A DNA stretch of 64,000 bases, from positions 1 to 64,000 of the forward strand of contig NZ_WWDL01000004.1 in assembly GCF_009848505.1 (NCBI RefSeq), written 5' to 3'. Source of the stretch: Muricoccus harenae. GTDB lineage: Bacteria > Pseudomonadota > Alphaproteobacteria > Acetobacterales > Acetobacteraceae. The position numbers were made by a program, and so were the translations under genes. Positions 4,186-46,861 of this stretch are shown in pieces. The notes beneath the pieces are model-generated. The model made no database searches and was not told the DNA's origin. It was given only the letters and a program-made list of their open reading frames with translations. Numbering within the stretch: the first letter of the stretch is position 1; every line of letters starts with the position of its first letter.

Positions 4186-5177
4186 TCTGGTCCACCGCGA
4201 TCAGCCTGCTCGTCGGGCTGTCCATCGCCATCGCCCTGATCGTCGCGAATGATCCGGGCGAGATCCTCCGCCTCCTGCTGGAGACGGGGTGGTGGATGCT
4301 TGCGGTGCTGGCGCTGAACGTCGCGCAGATCTTCGCATCCGGCCTCGGCTGGGGGCCGCTGATCGACGACCCGCGCCGGCCCGGCGTGTTCGGCCTCGCC
4401 TGGCTGCGCTGGGTGCGCGTCTCGGCCAATGCGCTGCTGCCGATCGTGCAGGCGATGGGCGAGCTGATCCGGGCGCAGCTTCTGCTCCGGCGCGGCGTGA
4501 ACAAGCTGCGGGTGATCGCGAGCCTCGCCATCGACCTTGGCACGGAGATGGCGTCGCAGATCGTCTTCTCGCTGCTTGGCCTCGCGGCGCTGCTGATGAT
4601 CCCGCATGCCACCGGCGGGTCCGCCGTGACCCTTGCGGTGGTTGGCACGGCCCTGGGCGCGGGGCTTACCGGGGTGTTCATCGCGGCGCAGCGCTGGGGA
4701 TTGTTCCGGCTGGTGGAGAGGATGCTCCCGAAGCTGGCGGCGCGGGTGGGCTGGACCTCGCTCGGGGAATTGTCGGGGCTGCATGATACGGTGGTGCAGC
4801 TTTACCGCGAGCCCGCGAGGCTGTGGCGCAGCGGCGTCTGGCACTTCGCCTCCTGGCTGATCGGCGTGCTTGAGACCTGGGCGGCGCTGCATGCGCTGGG
4901 CATCGAGGCGGGGCTGGCCGAGGCGCTGGTGATCGAAAGCCTGGGGCAGGCGGCACGCAGCGCGGGCTTCTTCATTCCCGGCGCGCTGGGGGTGCAGGAA
5001 GGTGGTTATGTGCTGATCTGCGCCCTGTTCGGCATCCCACCGGAGCAGGCCATCGCGCTGGTGCTGGTCCGGCGCCTGCGGGACATCATCCTGGGTGTTC
5101 CCGGCATCATCTCCTGGCGCTGGAGCGTCGCCGAACGACGCGCCGCTGCCAGGCCTGCGGCGAGGAGCCTGCCATGA
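4182..5177 (+). CDS. HpnL-like/UPF0104 (LPG synthase-type) integral membrane protein
   Basis: A 331-residue polytopic membrane protein with many hydrophobic segments, resembling the flippase-like membrane domain of lysylphosphatidylglycerol synthases and the HpnL family named for its occurrence near hopanoid genes. The segment near residues 255-275 (QAARSAGFFIPGALGVQEGG) is the conserved core of this superfamily. The GTG start at 4182 overlaps the decarboxylase stop and its own TGA overlaps the next ATG (ATGA), so it is translated as part of the phosphonate operon. No catalytic function can be assigned. Movement of an AEP lipid or another polar lipid across the inner membrane is an inference from context only. 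Confidence 0.82.
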   Translation: MIWSTAISLLVGLSIAIALIVANDPGEILRLLLETGWWMLAVLALNVAQIFASGLGWGPLIDDPRRPGVFGLAWLRWVRVSANALLPIVQAMGELIRAQLLLRRGVNKLRVIASLAIDLGTEMASQIVFSLLGLAALLMIPHATGGSAVTLAVVGTALGAGLTGVFIAAQRWGLFRLVERMLPKLAARVGWTSLGELSGLHDTVVQLYREPARLWRSGVWHFASWLIGVLETWAALHALGIEAGLAEALVIESLGQAARSAGFFIPGALGVQEGGYVLICALFGIPPEQAIALVLVRRLRDIILGVPGIISWRWSVAERRAAARPAARSLP

Positions 5178-36166: not shown

Positions 36167-36181
36167 GAACATTTAGGGAAC
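36167..36181. promoter_or_regulatory. LexA (SOS) box, alphaproteobacterial type
   Basis: GAAC-ATTTAGG-GAAC exactly matches the alphaproteobacterial LexA site GTTC-N7-GTTC read from the other strand. It lies 66 bp upstream of the chosen imuB start, so the imuB-dnaE2 operon is expected to be DNA-damage inducible. Confidence 0.85.
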
Positions 36182-36246: not shown

Positions 36247-37806
36247 ATGAGGCGCCGCTTCTGTCGCCCACCCCGGATACAATTGGGGGGCCCATCCATC
36301 CAGCCGGAGCAGGGGCGGCAGCCGGAGGAAACCCCGGCATCCCGGGAGGCTCGCATCCTTGCCCTGTACCTGCCCGGCCTGGCGACGGAGATCCTGCGCG
36401 TCCCCGGGCCTGTCCTCACTTGGCACATGGCGGGGAACCGGCGTCTGGTGGCCGCGGCGGATGCGGCGGCCATGGCGTTGGGGGTGCGGCCCGGCCAGGC
36501 CCTGGCCGATGCGCAGGCGCTGGCGCCGCAGGTGGCCGTCCATCCCGACGCACCGGATCTGGCGGCATCGCGGCTGGCGGAGCTGGCTCTCTGGGCCCTG
36601 CGCATCGCCCCGCTGGTCGCGCCCGATCCGCCGGACGGGCTGCTGGTGAACATCGCCGGCACCGCGCATCTGTCGGGCGGCGAGGCGGCCATGATGCGGC
36701 GGGCCGTGGCGGCGTTGGCTCGGCTGGGACATGCCGCCTCGGCCGCGGTGGCGGGCACTGCTGGCGCCGCCATGGCGCTGGCCCGCTACGGCACTTCCCG
36801 TTGCGTTCCGGCGGGCGGCGAGGCGGCGGCGCTGGCTGCGCTGCCCATCAATCTCCTGCGCCTGGAGACGGAGGTGACGGCCGGGCTGCGACGGATCGGC
36901 CTGCACGGGATCGGCGACGTGCTGGCCCAGCCGCGCGCTCCATTGGTCCGGCGCTTCGGGGCCGGGCTGGCTCTCGTACTGGATCGCGCCACCGGCGCCG
37001 TGTCGGAACCCTTTCGCAGCATCCGCCCCGCACCTGAGCGCAGCATCGCGCTGGATTTCGAGGAACCCCTGATCACCCGCACCGCCATCGACATGGTGGT
37101 GGAGCGGTTGCTGGCGCGGCTCTGCGCGCGACTGGCGGAGGAAGGGCAGGGGCTGCGGCGCCTCGGCCTGCGCGCGCATGGGGTGGATGGCAAGACGCAG
37201 GAGGTCGCGATCGGGCTTGGCCTCGCCAGCCGCGATCCGCGCCACCTGGCACGCCTCCTGGCCCCGAAGCTGGAGATGCTGGCGCCCGGCTTCGGCTTCG
37301 ACCGCATCATGCTGCTGGCCGAGCGGGTGGAGCCGCTGGGTGCCGCGCAATCCGGCCTGGGCGAGGCGGAGGATGAGCGGCTTGCCCTGGCGGCCTTGTT
37401 GGACCGCGTGGCGCAGCGCCTGCCGGCCTGGCGCCTGCGTCCGCGTGCGAGCCATTGGCCTGAGCGTGCGGTGGAGCGCGCCGATCCCCTGGCGCCCGTT
37501 CATCTGCCGGAGGGCTGGGCGGCGCGTCCGCGCCCGCTGCGCCTGCTGCGCCGGCCGGAGCAGCTGGAGGCCATGGCGGTGCTGCCCGATGCGCCGCCCT
37601 TCCGCATCCGCTGGCGCGGCAACTGGGTGCAACTGCGCGCGGCGGAGGGGCCGGAGCGGCTGGAGCCGGAATGGTGGCGCGACAACCCGGGCCGCCCGGT
37701 GCGCGACTACTACCGGGTGGAGATGCCGGATGGGCGCCGCCTCTGGGTCTGCCGCTCCGGCGGGCCGGGATCGGCGCGCTGGTTCCTGCACGGAATCCTG
37801 CCGTGA
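36247..37806 (+). CDS. imuB: ImuB, Y-family polymerase-like mutagenesis protein
   Basis: 519 residues. Y-family polymerase fold starting at ILALYLPGLATEI (about 38-50) without the DxD acidic catalytic pair of active Y polymerases, as expected for ImuB. It continues with the helix-hairpin region RRIGLHGIGDVLAQPR and the typical C-terminal WRDNPGRPVRDYYRVEMPDGRRLWV. It acts as the beta-clamp adaptor for the DnaE2 translesion polymerase. The ATG at 36247 was chosen because it is downstream of the LexA box; earlier in-frame starts would be upstream of the operator. Its stop overlaps the dnaE2 GTG (GTGA). No imuA is present. Confidence 0.88.
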   Translation: MRRRFCRPPRIQLGGPSIQPEQGRQPEETPASREARILALYLPGLATEILRVPGPVLTWHMAGNRRLVAAADAAAMALGVRPGQALADAQALAPQVAVHPDAPDLAASRLAELALWALRIAPLVAPDPPDGLLVNIAGTAHLSGGEAAMMRRAVAALARLGHAASAAVAGTAGAAMALARYGTSRCVPAGGEAAALAALPINLLRLETEVTAGLRRIGLHGIGDVLAQPRAPLVRRFGAGLALVLDRATGAVSEPFRSIRPAPERSIALDFEEPLITRTAIDMVVERLLARLCARLAEEGQGLRRLGLRAHGVDGKTQEVAIGLGLASRDPRHLARLLAPKLEMLAPGFGFDRIMLLAERVEPLGAAQSGLGEAEDERLALAALLDRVAQRLPAWRLRPRASHWPERAVERADPLAPVHLPEGWAARPRPLRLLRRPEQLEAMAVLPDAPPFRIRWRGNWVQLRAAEGPERLEPEWWRDNPGRPVRDYYRVEMPDGRRLWVCRSGGPGSARWFLHGILP

Positions 37807-40800
37807 GCGAGCCCGGATTCGCCGAATTGGGGGCGATGTCCAACTTCACCTTCCTGGAAGGCGCGTCGCATCCCTGGGAGCTGGTGGTGGCGGCGAAGGC
37901 GCTGGGCCATGCGGCGATCGGCATTGCCGACCGCAACTCCTTCGCCGGGCTGGTGCGCGGCATGGCGGCGAGCGAGGAGGCGGGCATCCGCTTCATCCCG
38001 GCTGCCGCGTGGCGCTGGAGGATGGGCAGGAATATCTCGTCTGGCCCACGGATCGCGCCGCCTATGCGCGGCTGGCGCGGATGCTCTCCGCGGCACGGAT
38101 GGCCGGCGAGAAGGATGAATGCCGCATCCCCCGCGATGCGCTGGTCGCCGCCGCCGAGGGGCAGGTGATGGCGATGCTGCCGCCCGATGCGCCGGCGGAG
38201 GATTTCGCGCAGCGCCTGCACCGTGACGCCGAGGCGATGCGCCGCACCCTGGCGCTGCCGATCTTCCTGGCCGCGCATCACCGCTTCGCCGGGGATGACC
38301 GGCAACGGCTGCGGGTTCTGTCCGCCATGGCCGGTTCGGCGCGGGCGGGGCTGCTGGCGGCGGGGGGAGTGCGGATGCATGCCGCGTCCCGCCGGCGGCT
38401 GGCGGATGTGGTGGCGGCGATCCGGCTGGGCGTGACGGTGGATGCGCTAGGCTTCCACGCATCCACCAATGCCGAGGCGCATCTGAAGTCCGGAGCCGAG
38501 ATGCGGCGCCTCTTCGCCGGGCATGAGGAGGCGGTGGAGGCGACGTCGTGCGTGGTGGAGGCCTGCTGCTTCAGCCTGCGCAACCTGTCCTATGAATATC
38601 CGGAGGAGATCCTGGATGAAGGGCTGAGCGCGCAGCAGACGCTGGAGCGGCGCGTGGCCGAGGCGGTGCGGGAGAAATGGCCGGGTGGGACGCCGGAGAA
38701 GGTCGCGCGCCAGATCGCCGAAGAGATGGAGCTGATCGCGCGGAAGGATTACGCCGCCTATTTCCTGACGGTGCATGAGATCGTCCGCTTCGCGCGATCG
38801 AAGGATATCCTCTGCCAGGGGCGCGGGTCGGCGGCGAATTCGGCGGTCTGCTACGTGCTGGGCATCACCTCCGTCGATCCATCCAAGCACCGCCTGCTCT
38901 TCGCGCGATTCCTGAGCGATGCGCGCGGCGAGCCGCCGGACATCGACATCGATTTCGAGCATGAGCGGCGCGAGGAGGTGATCCAGCACATCTACCAGCG
39001 CTATGGCCGTGACCGTGCCGCCCTGACGGCGACGCTGATCCGCTATCGCACGCGCAGCGCGGTGCGGGAGGTGGGCAAGGCGATGGGATTGTCGGAGGAC
39101 ATCACCGGCAGCCTCGCAAAGGCTTCCTGGCATGATGGCATGGACGGGTTGCGGGATGTCGCCCGCAGCGAGGGGCTGAACCCTGAGGCCGATCCGCGCC
39201 TGGGCATGGCCTTGGATCTGGCGGAGGAGCTTCATGGTTTCCCGCGGCACCTCGCCACCCATGTCGGCGGCTTCGTCATCACGCGTGGCAAGCTGACGGA
39301 GCTGGCCATCGTGACCAAGGCCGCAATGAAGAACCGCCACACCGTCGAGTGGGACAAGGACGACATCGGCGTTCTTCAGATGCTGAAGGTGGATGTGCTG
39401 GGGCTGGGGATGCTCTCCTGCATCCGGCGCGCCTTCGATCTGCTGCGGCGGTATGAGGGCGTGGATCACAGCCTGCAATCGGTGCCGCAGGATGAAGCCG
39501 AGACTTATGCCATGCTCGCGCGCGGGGATTCGCTCGGCGTGTTCCAGGTGGAAAGCCGGGCGCAGATGAACATGCTGCCGCGGATGCGGCCACGTGAATA
39601 CTACGATCTGGTGATCCAGGTGGCGATCGTCCGGCCAGGGCCGATTCAGGGCGATATGGTCAATCCCTATCTGCGGCGGCGGACGAACCGGGAGCCGGTG
39701 GAATACGCCAAGCCGGAGCTGAAGGAGGTGCTGGAGAAGACGCTCGGCGTGCCGCTCTTCCAGGAGCAGGCGATGGAAATGGCCATTGTCGCGGCCGGCT
39801 TCACACCGGCCCGTGCGGACGAGCTGCGCCGCTCCATGGCCTCCTTCAAGCATGACGGCAAGCTGCACCTGTTCGAGGCGGAATTCGTCGGCGGCATGAT
39901 CGCGCGCGGCTATGAGCCCGATTTCGCGAAGCGCTGCTTCAAGCAGATCGAAGGCTTCGGCGGCTATGGTTTTCCTGAAAGCCACGCGGCCTCCTTCGCG
40001 CAGCTTGTCTACATCTCTGCCCGGATCAAGTGCCACCATCCCGCGGTTTTCGCGGCAGCGCTGCTGAACAGCCAGCCCATGGGCTTCTATGCCCCTGCGC
40101 AGATCGTGCGCGACGCGCGCGAGCATGGCGTGGCGGTGCGCGCGGCCGATGTGACGGCGAGCGACTGGGATTGCACGCTGGAGAAGGAGGGAGAGGGGTG
40201 GGCGCTGCGCCTGGGGCTGCGCCTCGTCTCGGGTCTATCGTGGGAGGATGGCGAGAGGATCGTGGCGTTGCGGCCGCATGTCTCGCCTGCAGCCCTGGCG
40301 AAAGCCGGGCTCAGCCGCCAGGCGCTGGATGTTCTGGCGCGGGCCGATGCCTTCCGCGGCCTCGGCTTGGATCGCCGCCATGCCCTATGGGAGGCTGCGG
40401 CGGTAGAGCGCGCCGTCCTGCCGCCCTTGCCGCTCTTCGTCGCGGCCGAAGCAGCGCCGCGTCTTCCCGCCGAGACGCGGGGCGAGGAGACGGTGCTGGA
40501 TTACGGTGCCACCGGCCTGACGCTGCGCGCGCATCCGCTGGCCTTGCTGCGGGACCAGCTGGCGGGGCTCGGCCTGCGTGACAGCCGTGCCGTGACCGCG
40601 GCACGCCAGGGGCAGCGCATCCGCACGGCCGGGCTGGTGCTGGTGCGGCAGCGGCCGGGCACCGCCAAGGGGGTGGTCTTCTTCACGCTGGAGGATGAGT
40701 TCGGCACGGTGAACCTGGTGCTGCATGCCCAGGCCGTCGCGGCGAACCGTTCGCCCGTGGTGGCCGCGCGGCTGTTGCTGGCGGAGGGGCGGGTGGAGCG

Positions 40801-40996
40801 CCATGAGGAGGGGGCGGTGCCGATCGTGCATCTCGTCGGCCAGCGCCTGGAGGATCGTTCAGACCTGCTGGATGGGCTGCACCTGCTGGGCGGGATGCGC
40901 CTGCCGCTGGCGCGCGCGGACGAGATCGCGCGCGGCACGGACCATCGGCCCGATCCCCGCGCAGTGCGCATCCCCGGTAGCCGTGACTGGCACTAG
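37803..40996 (+). pseudogene. dnaE2: Error-prone DNA polymerase DnaE2 (ImuC) with a one-base frameshift
   Basis: C-family polymerase alpha subunit of the SOS mutasome. The GTG at 37803 starts AELGAMSNFTFLEGASHPWEL (PHP domain) and the frame is open through GIRFIP, ending at base 38000. The family continuation GCRVALEDGQEYLVWPTDRAAY is found only in the -1 frame from there to the stop at 40996, with the catalytic PDIDIDF near 38938-38958 intact. One missing G in CCCG|GCTGCC explains this. In the original frame translation ends at 38168. It is either a recent mutation, abolishing function, or a sequencing/assembly error; no slippery heptamer suggests programmed shifting. The stop shares CTAG with the convergent gene. 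Confidence 0.88.
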
Positions 40997-42840: not shown

Positions 42841-43215
42841 TCAGCTGGGGTTCACCACCAGGCTTTCCGCGGCCACCGTCACCGTGCCCGCGCCCGTCAT
42901 CGCGACGGCGCCGTTGAGCGGCGAGACGAGCAGCGGGTTGCCACCCGAGGCCGCGTCATACAGCCCCACATGCGTCAGCGTGCCGGCCGATGCCGCGAAG
43001 ACGAAGCGCAGCGCCTCGGCGTTGCGCTGCGGACCGGTGCCGGTGAAGGTCACGCGCTGGCGGGCATAGCCGTTGCCGGCCGGCTCCCCGGTGAGGCCCG
43101 CCGCCGCGGTTCCGCCGGTGCCGAGCGCCGCATAGACGGTGGTGGGAAGGCTCGGGGCCCGGGCGCAGACGGCGCAGGCCAGCAGGTTGCGGGCGTAGTC
43201 GGTCAGGTCGGACAT
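42841..43215 (-). CDS. Phage tail-fibre-like small protein
   Basis: 124 residues with the layout of short phage tail-fibre proteins: an N-terminal helix (DYARNLLACAV), then YAALGTGGTAAAGLTGEPAGNGYARQRV, then THVGLYDAASGGNPLL. Such proteins occur at the distal end of tail modules. No enzymatic function. Last of four minus-strand phage-like genes; a strong terminator follows within 8 bp of its stop. Confidence 0.72.
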   Translation of the reverse strand: MSDLTDYARNLLACAVCARAPSLPTTVYAALGTGGTAAAGLTGEPAGNGYARQRVTFTGTGPQRNAEALRFVFAASAGTLTHVGLYDAASGGNPLLVSPLNGAVAMTGAGTVTVAAESLVVNPS

Positions 43216-43229
43216 GAGAAGGCTCCCGT

Positions 43230-44456
43230 CTAGCTGAGGGTGGTGAGCGCCTGCAGGGCGGTGCCCGGCAGGCGTGTGGGGTGGAGGTCGAGCGGGCCGA
43301 TCTCGCCAAAGGCTGCGCGCCCGAGCCCGGCCGCCGCATGGCCGACCAGCAGGCGCGCCAGCCCTGCCGGCGGGGCCGCGGCCGACTGGACCGCGCCACC
43401 CGCCATGCAGAGCGCGACGCCGCTCGGATCCCAGGCCAGAGCCGCGCGGAAGGGTGTGCCCGGGCTCATGGTGCCGCCCGCCAGCACCGCAGCCGTGACG
43501 CCGCCGGAGACGAGCGCCGCCTCCACCGCCGCGCCGCCGGCCGCGTTGCGCAGGATGACGCGGTTGCCGTCACCGCCATCGTCGAGCTGCAGGAGGCCCT
43601 GCTCCGTTCCCGATGCGGCTGCCTGCGGCAGTATGAAGGTGCCGATGAGGGTTCCGCGCGGCTGGGCGGCGGCGGGCAGGGCATAGGCCGGCACATCCGC
43701 CGCGCGCGTGCTGACGGCCATCGTGCCGGCGGGCGGCAGGATAGGGCTGGAGGCGAAGGCGCCGAGCTCAAGCTGCGGTACGGCCAGGCGGAAGGTCATG
43801 TCCACCGGCTGGCCGGTCGCCAGGCTGATCCGGAGGCGCCCGGTTGAATTCCCGGTGGATGCGATGGACCATGACGCCGAAACCCGGCAATTCCGGAGCG
43901 CCGTGCCGGTGGGAATGCCGACATTCATGTTGGTCACGAATGCCGGGGCGAAGTGGTTGACGCCGTTGGTGCTGCCGCCCGTCACCCTGATGAACAGGCT
44001 GTAGGTCCAGATCTGGCCTTCCGCGATGGGGGTCGTGCCGCCGCCATGGTTGAGCTGATAGATGCTTGCGGTCGGCGTTCCGAAGATTCGAAGTTCAACA
44101 TAGGGGAGTCCATCCTCCGCGCCCGTGCCGACCACCTCTGTGGAGAGCCCGGCATCCCCGGCGACGCTTCCACCGGTCGGCAGCTGGCCGCCGGCGCCCA
44201 CAAGGCCGGGAACCGCGCCCTCGCTGCGCGGGTTGGTGAACTGGTTCGTGCGCGCGCCCTCGACGATAAGGCGCCGGGCCGTGCCGCCGAAGCGGGGTGC
44301 ATCCGCGCCGGCCTGCTGCCAGCTGGTGCCGGTGGCGCCCAGGACCAGCGCGGCAGAGGCGCGGGCAAAGCCGAGCGACGGCAGGAGTCCGCCCCGGGAG
44401 ATCAACCGGAGCGGACCGCCGCCGAGCGCATGGATGGCCAGGGTGGTGCCGATCAT
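43230..44456 (-). CDS. Phage-like structural protein with lectin-type beta-sandwich
   Basis: 408 residues, beta-rich. RLIVEGARTNQFTNPRSE near residue 65 is a recurrent phrase in phage tail/adhesin proteins. The C-terminal half (about 240-400: GTLIGTFILPQ, LLQLDDGGDGNRVILRN, PFRAALAWDPSGVALCMAGG) resembles a concanavalin/LamG-like sugar-binding sandwich. Receptor or polysaccharide binding is plausible. Its ATG overlaps the stop of the tailspike gene (TGATG arrangement). Confidence 0.65.
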   Translation of the reverse strand: MIGTTLAIHALGGGPLRLISRGGLLPSLGFARASAALVLGATGTSWQQAGADAPRFGGTARRLIVEGARTNQFTNPRSEGAVPGLVGAGGQLPTGGSVAGDAGLSTEVVGTGAEDGLPYVELRIFGTPTASIYQLNHGGGTTPIAEGQIWTYSLFIRVTGGSTNGVNHFAPAFVTNMNVGIPTGTALRNCRVSASWSIASTGNSTGRLRISLATGQPVDMTFRLAVPQLELGAFASSPILPPAGTMAVSTRAADVPAYALPAAAQPRGTLIGTFILPQAAASGTEQGLLQLDDGGDGNRVILRNAAGGAAVEAALVSGGVTAAVLAGGTMSPGTPFRAALAWDPSGVALCMAGGAVQSAAAPPAGLARLLVGHAAAGLGRAAFGEIGPLDLHPTRLPGTALQALTTLS

Positions 44457-46861
44457 CAGGCCGCACCCGCGCCGGTGAGCTGGCAGAGTTTCGTCGTGCC
44501 GCCATCCGGCGAGAAGACCAGCAGGCTGGCGACGCCGCCGGCCCTCACCTTGGCATAGCCATCCGGGTTGAGGATTGCGGAGGAGAAGCCGGCGAGCGAC
44601 ACGGCCAGATCCGTGCCGGAGCGGTTCACCACCAGGCAGGAGAAGCCGTTGCCGGTGGCGGCCCAGTCCATGGACAGGGTGGTGCCGGCATTGGCCGGGA
44701 TCATTCGCGCGTTATGGGTGGCGAAGGTCAGCGGCGTGGCCGCCGCCGTCACCACCATGGCGACGGGGCGCTGGACGAAGCTGTTGTCCACGTAGTTGCG
44801 CGTCGCCGCCTGCATGGCGGTCGCGGGATCGGCGGGTAGGGTCAGCGGCCCTGTCAGCGTCACGGCACCGGAGGAGGCGATGCGCATCCGCTCGGCCAGC
44901 ATGCCGGCCGATCGCTTCTCGATCACCACCGCGCCGGATTCCGCCCCGGCCGCCACGCCTTCGGCCAGGGTCGCGATCCGGCCATAGGTCACCTCGGCCG
45001 CCGCGCTGTTGTTGCCGTTTCCTTCCAGCGAGAAGATGCGGTCATTCACGGCGGGCGTGGTGGAAAGCCGACGCAGCCGCAGGGTCAGCGGCTGCGTCAT
45101 GCCCGTGCCGCCGAAGGCGAAGGCGGCGTTCGGGTTCAGCACGGCATCGCCGGCCATGAACACATCGTTCCCCGCCACGCTGAGGGATGCCGCCGCGGTG
45201 TCGGCACTGCCGTGCAGGCGCAGCATCGCGCCGGCGCTGCCGCTGCGTCGGTGCACCGCCACGATCCCGTCGGAGCGCGCCGAGAGGCGCGTCTCGATGA
45301 CGCCGGAGGAGGAGATCGCGGCCAGCTCGGATTGCCCGCCGATGCTGCGCGCGATGCCGACGGAGGAGGGCAGCCGGCTGCCCGAAATCTGCATCTTCTG
45401 CAGCGCCGCGGCACTCTGCCCCGTGAAGCTCGTCGTCTTCAGGTCGCAGCCGAGGATCTGCAGGCTGTCCGCCGCGTCATGGACATGGACGCCGCCATAG
45501 ATGTCGCAGCCCATCAGCACGAGCCCGCCATCCAGCAGATCGACCGAACGGCCCGATCCGGCGGGCAGCATGACGCCTGCGATGGTGTTCTGGTCCGCCG
45601 CCTGCACATTCACGACCAGCGCGCGGCCCTTGCTGGACCAGAAGCCGCCATACCACTTGTTGCGGTTCGCCAGCCCAGAGATCTGCACGCCAATGGTGGC
45701 GGGATCGACGACGATGCCGTCCAGCCCGCAATTCACGATCTGGGCGGAATGCGTCAGGTCGTCCAGGTGCCAGCCGATGTCATGGCCGAACTCGAAGCAG
45801 CTGACGAAGTTCGGCATGTCGGCATCATAGATGTGGAAGCCCTTGCCGCGCCGGTGGTTGGGCGCGGGATTGACCGAGCCGCCGCTGGTGTAGCTGCCGG
45901 AGAAGGCGCTGGACGCGAGGTCCAGCGTGGTGGAAGTGGGCGCCGTGGCGACGGTGAAGCGCCCATTCGCGCCCGTCACCCCGCCGACGCCGCCCACCAC
46001 CACCACGTCGCCCGCCCTCAGCTCATGCGCCGTGCTGGTTGTGAGGCGGACGAGGCCCGAGCCGTTGTTGGCGCAGCCGCTGACCGTGTAGGAAACGGAA
46101 GACCAGGTGCGGCCGGTCGTCGCCAGCGGATGCCAGTTGATGCGCTCCTTATGCGCGATGTCGTAGGACTTGCCGAGATACAGGCCGTTGGTGCAGTCGC
46201 CGAGCACGTCGCGGATGCGCGTGCGGCTGGCGCCATTGCTGTAGATGGCCCAGTTGAATCCAATGATCAGCAGGCTGCGTACGGAGGCGTCGGTGGCGTT
46301 GGTGGCGCTGGCGCCGGTGCTTCCGTCTCCGATGCTCACCGCGGTGCCGGCAAAGGCCTGCACGGCGTCGAGCGCCTCGCGCACCGAGGCAGGAGAGGTG
46401 AAGCCCTTGCGCAGGATGGCCAGCTGCTCCAGCGCGGCGTTGCGGCGCAGCCGGATGGTACGGACCGGGTTCAGCAGGAAGCAGTAGGGCAGGGCGGTGT
46501 AGTCGTTGTTGACGCGCCACCCACCCGGATCGCCGCCGCCTTGCAGCGTGACATTGGCCGGGATGATGAGGTCCGCGCTGTCAATCAGGTAGCGGCGCGG
46601 GCCGACGAGCACCACGCCGCCGGTGGCGGCGGCGGCGTTCAGCGCGGCCTGGATGGCGGCGGTGTCGTCGGTTGTGCCGTTGCCCACTGCGCCGTAGTCG
46701 CGGACATGCAGGGGCCGATCTGCCAGGAGGGTGGTGCGAAGCTGGCCGAAGGTGGCGCGCCGCGTCTCCGCCGACGAACCCACACCCTGCACGAAGGGAG
46801 AGATGTCGGTGTCGAGGAGCATGGCGGCAGGTGGAAGATCCGTGATCTTACTGTCGGGCAT
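44456..46861 (-). CDS. Tailspike-like protein with pectate-lyase-type beta-helix
   Basis: 801 residues. The N-terminal adaptor MPDSKITDLPPAAMLLDTDI is typical of phage fibres that attach through this segment. VRDYGAVGNGTTDDTAAIQA (about 52-71) then opens a right-handed beta-helix of the Pectate_lyase_3/tailspike superfamily extending to about 480. The remainder is a glycine/alanine-rich fibre with AATRNYVDNSFVQRPVA and a final beta domain. It likely binds or cuts a surface polysaccharide. No signal peptide, consistent with a virion-type protein. Confidence 0.75.
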   Translation of the reverse strand: MPDSKITDLPPAAMLLDTDISPFVQGVGSSAETRRATFGQLRTTLLADRPLHVRDYGAVGNGTTDDTAAIQAALNAAAATGGVVLVGPRRYLIDSADLIIPANVTLQGGGDPGGWRVNNDYTALPYCFLLNPVRTIRLRRNAALEQLAILRKGFTSPASVREALDAVQAFAGTAVSIGDGSTGASATNATDASVRSLLIIGFNWAIYSNGASRTRIRDVLGDCTNGLYLGKSYDIAHKERINWHPLATTGRTWSSVSYTVSGCANNGSGLVRLTTSTAHELRAGDVVVVGGVGGVTGANGRFTVATAPTSTTLDLASSAFSGSYTSGGSVNPAPNHRRGKGFHIYDADMPNFVSCFEFGHDIGWHLDDLTHSAQIVNCGLDGIVVDPATIGVQISGLANRNKWYGGFWSSKGRALVVNVQAADQNTIAGVMLPAGSGRSVDLLDGGLVLMGCDIYGGVHVHDAADSLQILGCDLKTTSFTGQSAAALQKMQISGSRLPSSVGIARSIGGQSELAAISSSGVIETRLSARSDGIVAVHRRSGSAGAMLRLHGSADTAAASLSVAGNDVFMAGDAVLNPNAAFAFGGTGMTQPLTLRLRRLSTTPAVNDRIFSLEGNGNNSAAAEVTYGRIATLAEGVAAGAESGAVVIEKRSAGMLAERMRIASSGAVTLTGPLTLPADPATAMQAATRNYVDNSFVQRPVAMVVTAAATPLTFATHNARMIPANAGTTLSMDWAATGNGFSCLVVNRSGTDLAVSLAGFSSAILNPDGYAKVRAGGVASLLVFSPDGGTTKLCQLTGAGAA

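Follow-up and report, generated by a model that had tools for sequence, protein, structure and literature searches.

According to the sections of PMC3901139 drawn on here, the imuABC genes occur either as operons or scattered, with an SOS box each, and a lone imuC exists as well. The same sections describe imu cassettes carried on plasmids in some Alphaproteobacteria and, for mycobacteria, binding of the beta clamp by ImuB and not by ImuC. A survey of the literature on dnaE2, imuB and LexA in Alphaproteobacteria and on dnaE2 of Roseomonas returned no paper on the combination present in the genome of Muricoccus harenae. The window, that is, the whole stretch of 64,000 nucleotides analysed, contains a locus that resembles the imuB-dnaE2 (imuB-imuC) cassette of Alphaproteobacteria in its gene order, in the overlap of stop and start codons, and in the upstream GTTC-N7-GTTC site. 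It differs in that imuA does not adjoin the cassette in this clade, and in that this genome alone has its dnaE2 out of frame; the imuB-dnaE2 cassette is intact in the eight closest relatives. The features of the locus are as follows.

36167..36181, minus strand: Alphaproteobacterial SOS-box-like site GTTC-N7-GTTC, GTTCCCTAAATGTTC, 65 bp before the imuB start
36247..37806, plus strand: imuB, intact frame of 519 aa, its start set from the MRRR/VRRR start of relatives
37803..38168, plus strand: dnaE2 5' part as translatable, 66 family-frame codons followed by 55 out-of-frame codons and a stop
37997..38000, plus strand: position of the frame break, within a short run of C and G that has one base fewer than in relatives
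38000..40996, plus strand: remainder of dnaE2, 998 codons, open and conserved, with no second lesion, in a frame that differs from that of the start

Downstream of dnaE2, two ORFs lie on the minus strand between 42841 and 46861: the one at 42841-43215 has a phage-fibre-like Gp80 domain, and the one at 44456-46861, of 801 aa, has a pectate-lyase-like domain.

The first gene of the cassette is classed as imuB on the Y-family-like domains of its product together with the adjoining dnaE2. The Pfam scores for the whole protein lie above threshold for IMS (27.5 bits vs 23.2) and IMS_C (21.9 vs 20.7), with no single IMS_C stretch passing by itself. The initial annotation had imuB kept beside a damaged dnaE2, and the intact 519-aa frame agrees with that. 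Its dN/dS against seven relatives amounts to 0.252-0.320, and the 21 pairs among those relatives span 0.156-0.346. A genome-wide search for a second imuB picked up a single additional match, with 28% identity and 23 bits, which leaves the window copy beside the broken dnaE2 as the only imuB found in the genome. Upstream of imuB, the GTTC-N7-GTTC motif has a single match in the 64 kb of the window compared with 0.64 expected by chance, so that a chance match is plausible and it is position and conservation that carry the weight. Since the site lies just before imuB in seven of seven orthologous cassettes examined, a set comprising the close orthologues other than the eighth one, from G012, it is likely to be a LexA site, as predicted from the motif and its placement. 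The genes upstream of imuB in three relatives (L023, L024, L025) lie on the opposite strand and imuA is not adjoining, while an imuA-like match directly precedes imuB in G003 and G004.

The second gene of the cassette, spanning 37803-40996, is identified as dnaE2 by its sequence, its open reading frames and a profile search. Its start codon is the GTG at 37803, which shares four bases with the end of imuB including the stop. From this codon the frame follows the N-terminus of DnaE2 as far as GIRFIP, codon 66 occupying 37998-38000; past this codon it leaves the family sequence and reaches a stop at 38166-38168, for a total of 121 aa. At 38000 the DnaE2 frame is picked up again with GCRVALEDG..., and it continues as far as 40996. 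Against the NCBIfam model NF004225 (error-prone DNA polymerase), residues 4-68 of the 5' piece match model positions 4-68 with 58.9 bits, and residues 4-962 of the 3' piece, read from 37994, match positions 68-1039 of 1047. The 3' piece alone scores 1222.8 bits with a cut-off of 939, which places it in the DnaE2/ImuC family. Because the two pieces cover nearly the whole model, little has been lost except the frame; a single uninterrupted dnaE2 reading frame is absent from the window. Both the identity of the gene and the change of frame at base 38000 by a single net base, as initially annotated, are borne out by the profile matches, the latter also by the relatives. The place given there, 37803-38168, does contain the break, but it is the range of the truncated ORF and not that of the gene.

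Pfam domains above their cut-offs in the 3' piece are those of polymerase alpha, the finger and the helix-hairpin-helix, and the OB-fold in the 3' piece (23.3 vs 27) and the PHP domain in the 5' piece (23.7 vs 26.4) are slightly below theirs. The catalytic aspartates of C-family polymerases reside in a PDxDxDF motif and a later VD motif. Both are present in the downstream frame of the window copy, as PPDIDIDFE and KVDVLGLG when inspected by eye. Proteins from three of five relatives (G001, G007, G008) place the break at 37997-38000, and the ORFs called in the other two, G009 and G010, give no indication of it. The net change is one base, and any position within the C/G run would account for it. 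It follows that the gene is indeed one base short with respect to relatives, as had been proposed, but that the specific remedy of one extra G, and with it the test string CCCGGG, asks for more than the run can tell. An examination of repeats around the break yielded nothing of use.

In order to place the break in its phylogenetic context, the N-terminal and the downstream piece of the window copy were searched separately by tblastn against 102 loci from sets with one genome per species. Some match was obtained in 101 loci, and both pieces were found in 93; eight loci had no match to the second, downstream test piece. The two pieces share one frame in 92 of the 92 other loci with both, a count that includes three contigs entered twice (L004/L023, L009/L024, L010/L025) and the second copy of the same genome (L002); the sole exception, L001, is the window's own copy. 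The eight closest orthologues, 81-86% identical, are all in frame without an internal stop. Among the named relatives, Roseomonas and allied genera predominate at the head of the list. With the pieces in one frame in all of these other loci, this genome is the only one of those compared to show the frame break. This bears on the idea that the break is bypassed, with programmed -1 frameshifting or downstream re-initiation giving a working DnaE2. In its favour, the downstream frame shows conservation and, in this GC-rich sequence, extends without a stop well upstream of the break, but none of the 92 other loci shows a change of frame, a classical slippery heptamer, sought by eye, is not seen at the break, and re-initiation past this point would probably cost the PHP domain roughly its first 70 residues. 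A bypass is accordingly very improbable.

The age of the break was approached by a codon comparison of the downstream part of dnaE2 with the eight intact orthologues (L004-L011). The dN/dS of the window copy against these relatives is 0.150-0.211, and the 28 pairs among the intact relatives give 0.106-0.300 with a median of 0.235; the 5' piece, with 65 columns, is too noisy for use. As rough three-point estimates, the terminal-branch dN/dS is 0.171 for the window copy and 0.047-0.284 for the eight intact relatives, and the terminal dS of the window copy is 0.252. Unique residues in columns that are otherwise invariant number 18 in the window copy, 26 in L007 and 1-14 in the other genes; the window copy is thus second highest among the nine, and its branch is also long. 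No sign of a second lesion or of relaxed selection was found in the approximately 3 kb of downstream dnaE2. Arithmetic on the same rough estimates limits the neutral share of the terminal branch to ≈ 7% or less for an intact rate of 0.106 and to ≈ 13% for one of 0.047, that is, to about a tenth or less. In the absence of relaxed selection and of a second lesion, the change is either very recent or an error.

That the window copy is an older pseudogene, its sequence surviving by passive preservation, is hardly credible on these values. Degraded dnaE2 copies do exist in relatives: those of G014 (contig C14) and G009 (contig C66) contain internal stops, G011 and G019 retain fragments, and a gene of G001 (contig C84) is split over two frames. 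Even so, a terminal dN/dS of 0.171 at a terminal dS of 0.252 speaks against such a history for the window copy, as do the several lesions of a decayed gene on the same contig. The latter gene (contig C63, ~93188-93822, L142:9188-9822) has lost its 3' end and is open in four relatives. The window copy resembles a recent single-indel pseudogene of a duplicated gene, with one lesion, no decay and an intact paralogue present; it differs from such a case in that its break may be an assembly error.

This last point deserves particular attention, as the absence of any decay is also what a sequencing or assembly error would produce. The initial annotation had dnaE2 either inactivated very recently or mis-sequenced: the break is indeed private and free of decay, and the present data fit a mutation and an error alike. 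It is seriously possible that the shift arose in the sequencing or assembly of this draft genome, which consists of 126 contigs, and that the gene is intact in the cell; the lesion is single, lies in a short C/G run and is private to one draft assembly, and selection downstream is indistinguishable from that on intact genes. The frequency of such breaks was assessed by comparing proteins of five relatives with 104,000 bases of the contig (the window and a further 40 kb), of which 70,044 were covered and about 34 kb uncovered; the sensitivity of the scan is incomplete, given that the known dnaE2 break was reported by three of the five relatives. Candidate breaks appeared at six places in the 104 kb, namely at ~69.5, 79.7, 84.6, 92.1 and 93.6 kb and in dnaE2. 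Those at ~69.5, 79.7, 84.6 and 92.1 kb were rejected as alternative ORF ends or shadow frames, other relatives aligning in one frame or as two genes. The other supported break, at ~93.6 kb, belongs to a gene that carries a shift as well as an internal stop and lacks its end, as is usual for a decaying pseudogene. The break in dnaE2 is the only lone indel recognised in the ≈ 70 kb covered, and inspection of the six candidates speaks, within the limits of the scan, against an assembly generally rich in indels. Errors do not look frequent here within those limits, which argues against an error at dnaE2, and because lone indels look rare in the assembly a real event is somewhat favoured, at about 55 to 40.

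A second dnaE2 resides on contig C2 (138902-141997; minus-strand ORF L117 16027-19374). It is intact, has no internal stop, and encodes a full-length DnaE2/ImuC in one frame: the 1115-aa ORF scores 1286 bits against NF004225 (cut-off 939), residues 19-1073 matching model positions 4-1039 of 1047. Its product is 59% identical to the window copy over query residues 3-998. Its first conserved motif is preceded by a GTTC-N7-GTTC site at a distance of 486 bp (start to start), and no imuB is found over the ≈ 0.6 kb that remain before the contig end, the limit of visible upstream sequence. In these features, an SOS-like site and no imuB within 0.6 kb, the contig C2 copy is like the solo dnaE2/imuC with its own SOS box and shows no difference of principle from it, as far as the cited sections of PMC3901139 describe that arrangement. 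An IS91-family transposase gene and IS5-like sequences scoring below cut-off lie nearby, and the best 10 of 2,111 plasmid records matching this gene are all from Roseomonas, at 65-67% identity.

Comparable spacings were met in relatives in a survey of 14 second-cassette loci, two of which (L129, L133) yielded no dnaE2 motif and hence no distance. Among copies with no imuB found on their contig, the distance is 483 in G008 (contig C10) and G001 (contig C96, which has two further GTTC-N7-GTTC sites), 517 in G001 (contig C45) and 393 in G009 (contig C66). In G005, contig C94 carries a dnaE2 with a site at 486 bases and imuA-like and imuB genes as well. The 393-517 bp between the SOS-like site and the first motif in several copies (L123, L124, L125 and L134, from G001, G008 and G009) leave space for a small ORF, and some genomes of the genus (G001, G009) harbour four or five dnaE2 loci, fragments included.

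With a second intact dnaE2 present, the function has probably not been lost from the cell. The early proposal that the strain had lost its SOS mutator polymerase cannot be maintained in view of the full-length DnaE2 and SOS-box-like site on contig C2, and the bearing on the strain's mutation rate that was drawn from the window locus fails for the same reason. Loss of imuA was likewise considered, but an imuA-like gene is located on contig C56 (L139:3739-4560), detached from imuB and with a GTTC-N7-GTTC site (4565-4579) directly before its start, although its product stays below the curated cut-off of NCBIfam NF033429 (87.9 bits, cut-off 150, E 7.6e-25). This protein shares 43% identity with the ImuA-like product of the gene immediately ahead of imuB in G002, and imuA-like matches away from the imuB contigs also occur in G007-G010. 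The parts list for SOS mutagenesis thus looks complete without the broken copy, judged by gene content, and what has been lost, in reality or in appearance, is likely to be one DnaE2 copy out of two and not SOS mutagenesis. The arrangement is a fresh instance of the scattered and duplicated imu genes already described in the cited sections of PMC3901139.

The best explanation as a whole, to which we assign a probability of roughly 0.55, is a real, recent one-base deletion that leaves the window copy null, the function being kept by the second copy. The imuB-dnaE2 operon of the window, preceded by its SOS-box-like site, would then have suffered one single-base deletion in dnaE2, very recently and near codon 66. 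Starting at the GTG, translation would end in a 121-residue fragment with the first part of the PHP domain only; the break is inferred to be biologically real and the window copy null, yielding no polymerase. What would remain is the intact dnaE2 on contig C2 with an SOS-box-like site of its own, the imuA-like gene and one imuB, and induced mutagenesis would probably persist via the second copy. The second DnaE2 may perhaps use the ImuB encoded beside the broken gene, although the two DnaE2 proteins are only 59% identical. It seems unlikely, on the other hand, that a subunit swap is under way, in which a solo dnaE2 with an SOS box, originating in another lineage and lying near insertion sequences, has rendered the native gene dispensable and left the native operon to supply nothing but ImuB to a foreign polymerase.

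If the shift is an error, the case merely warns against inferring gene loss from a single assembly. If it is real, it would provide a clean case in which one copy of a duplicated SOS polymerase has been lost with its partner imuB still intact, and it would open the question of whether the ImuB of one cassette works with the DnaE2 of another.
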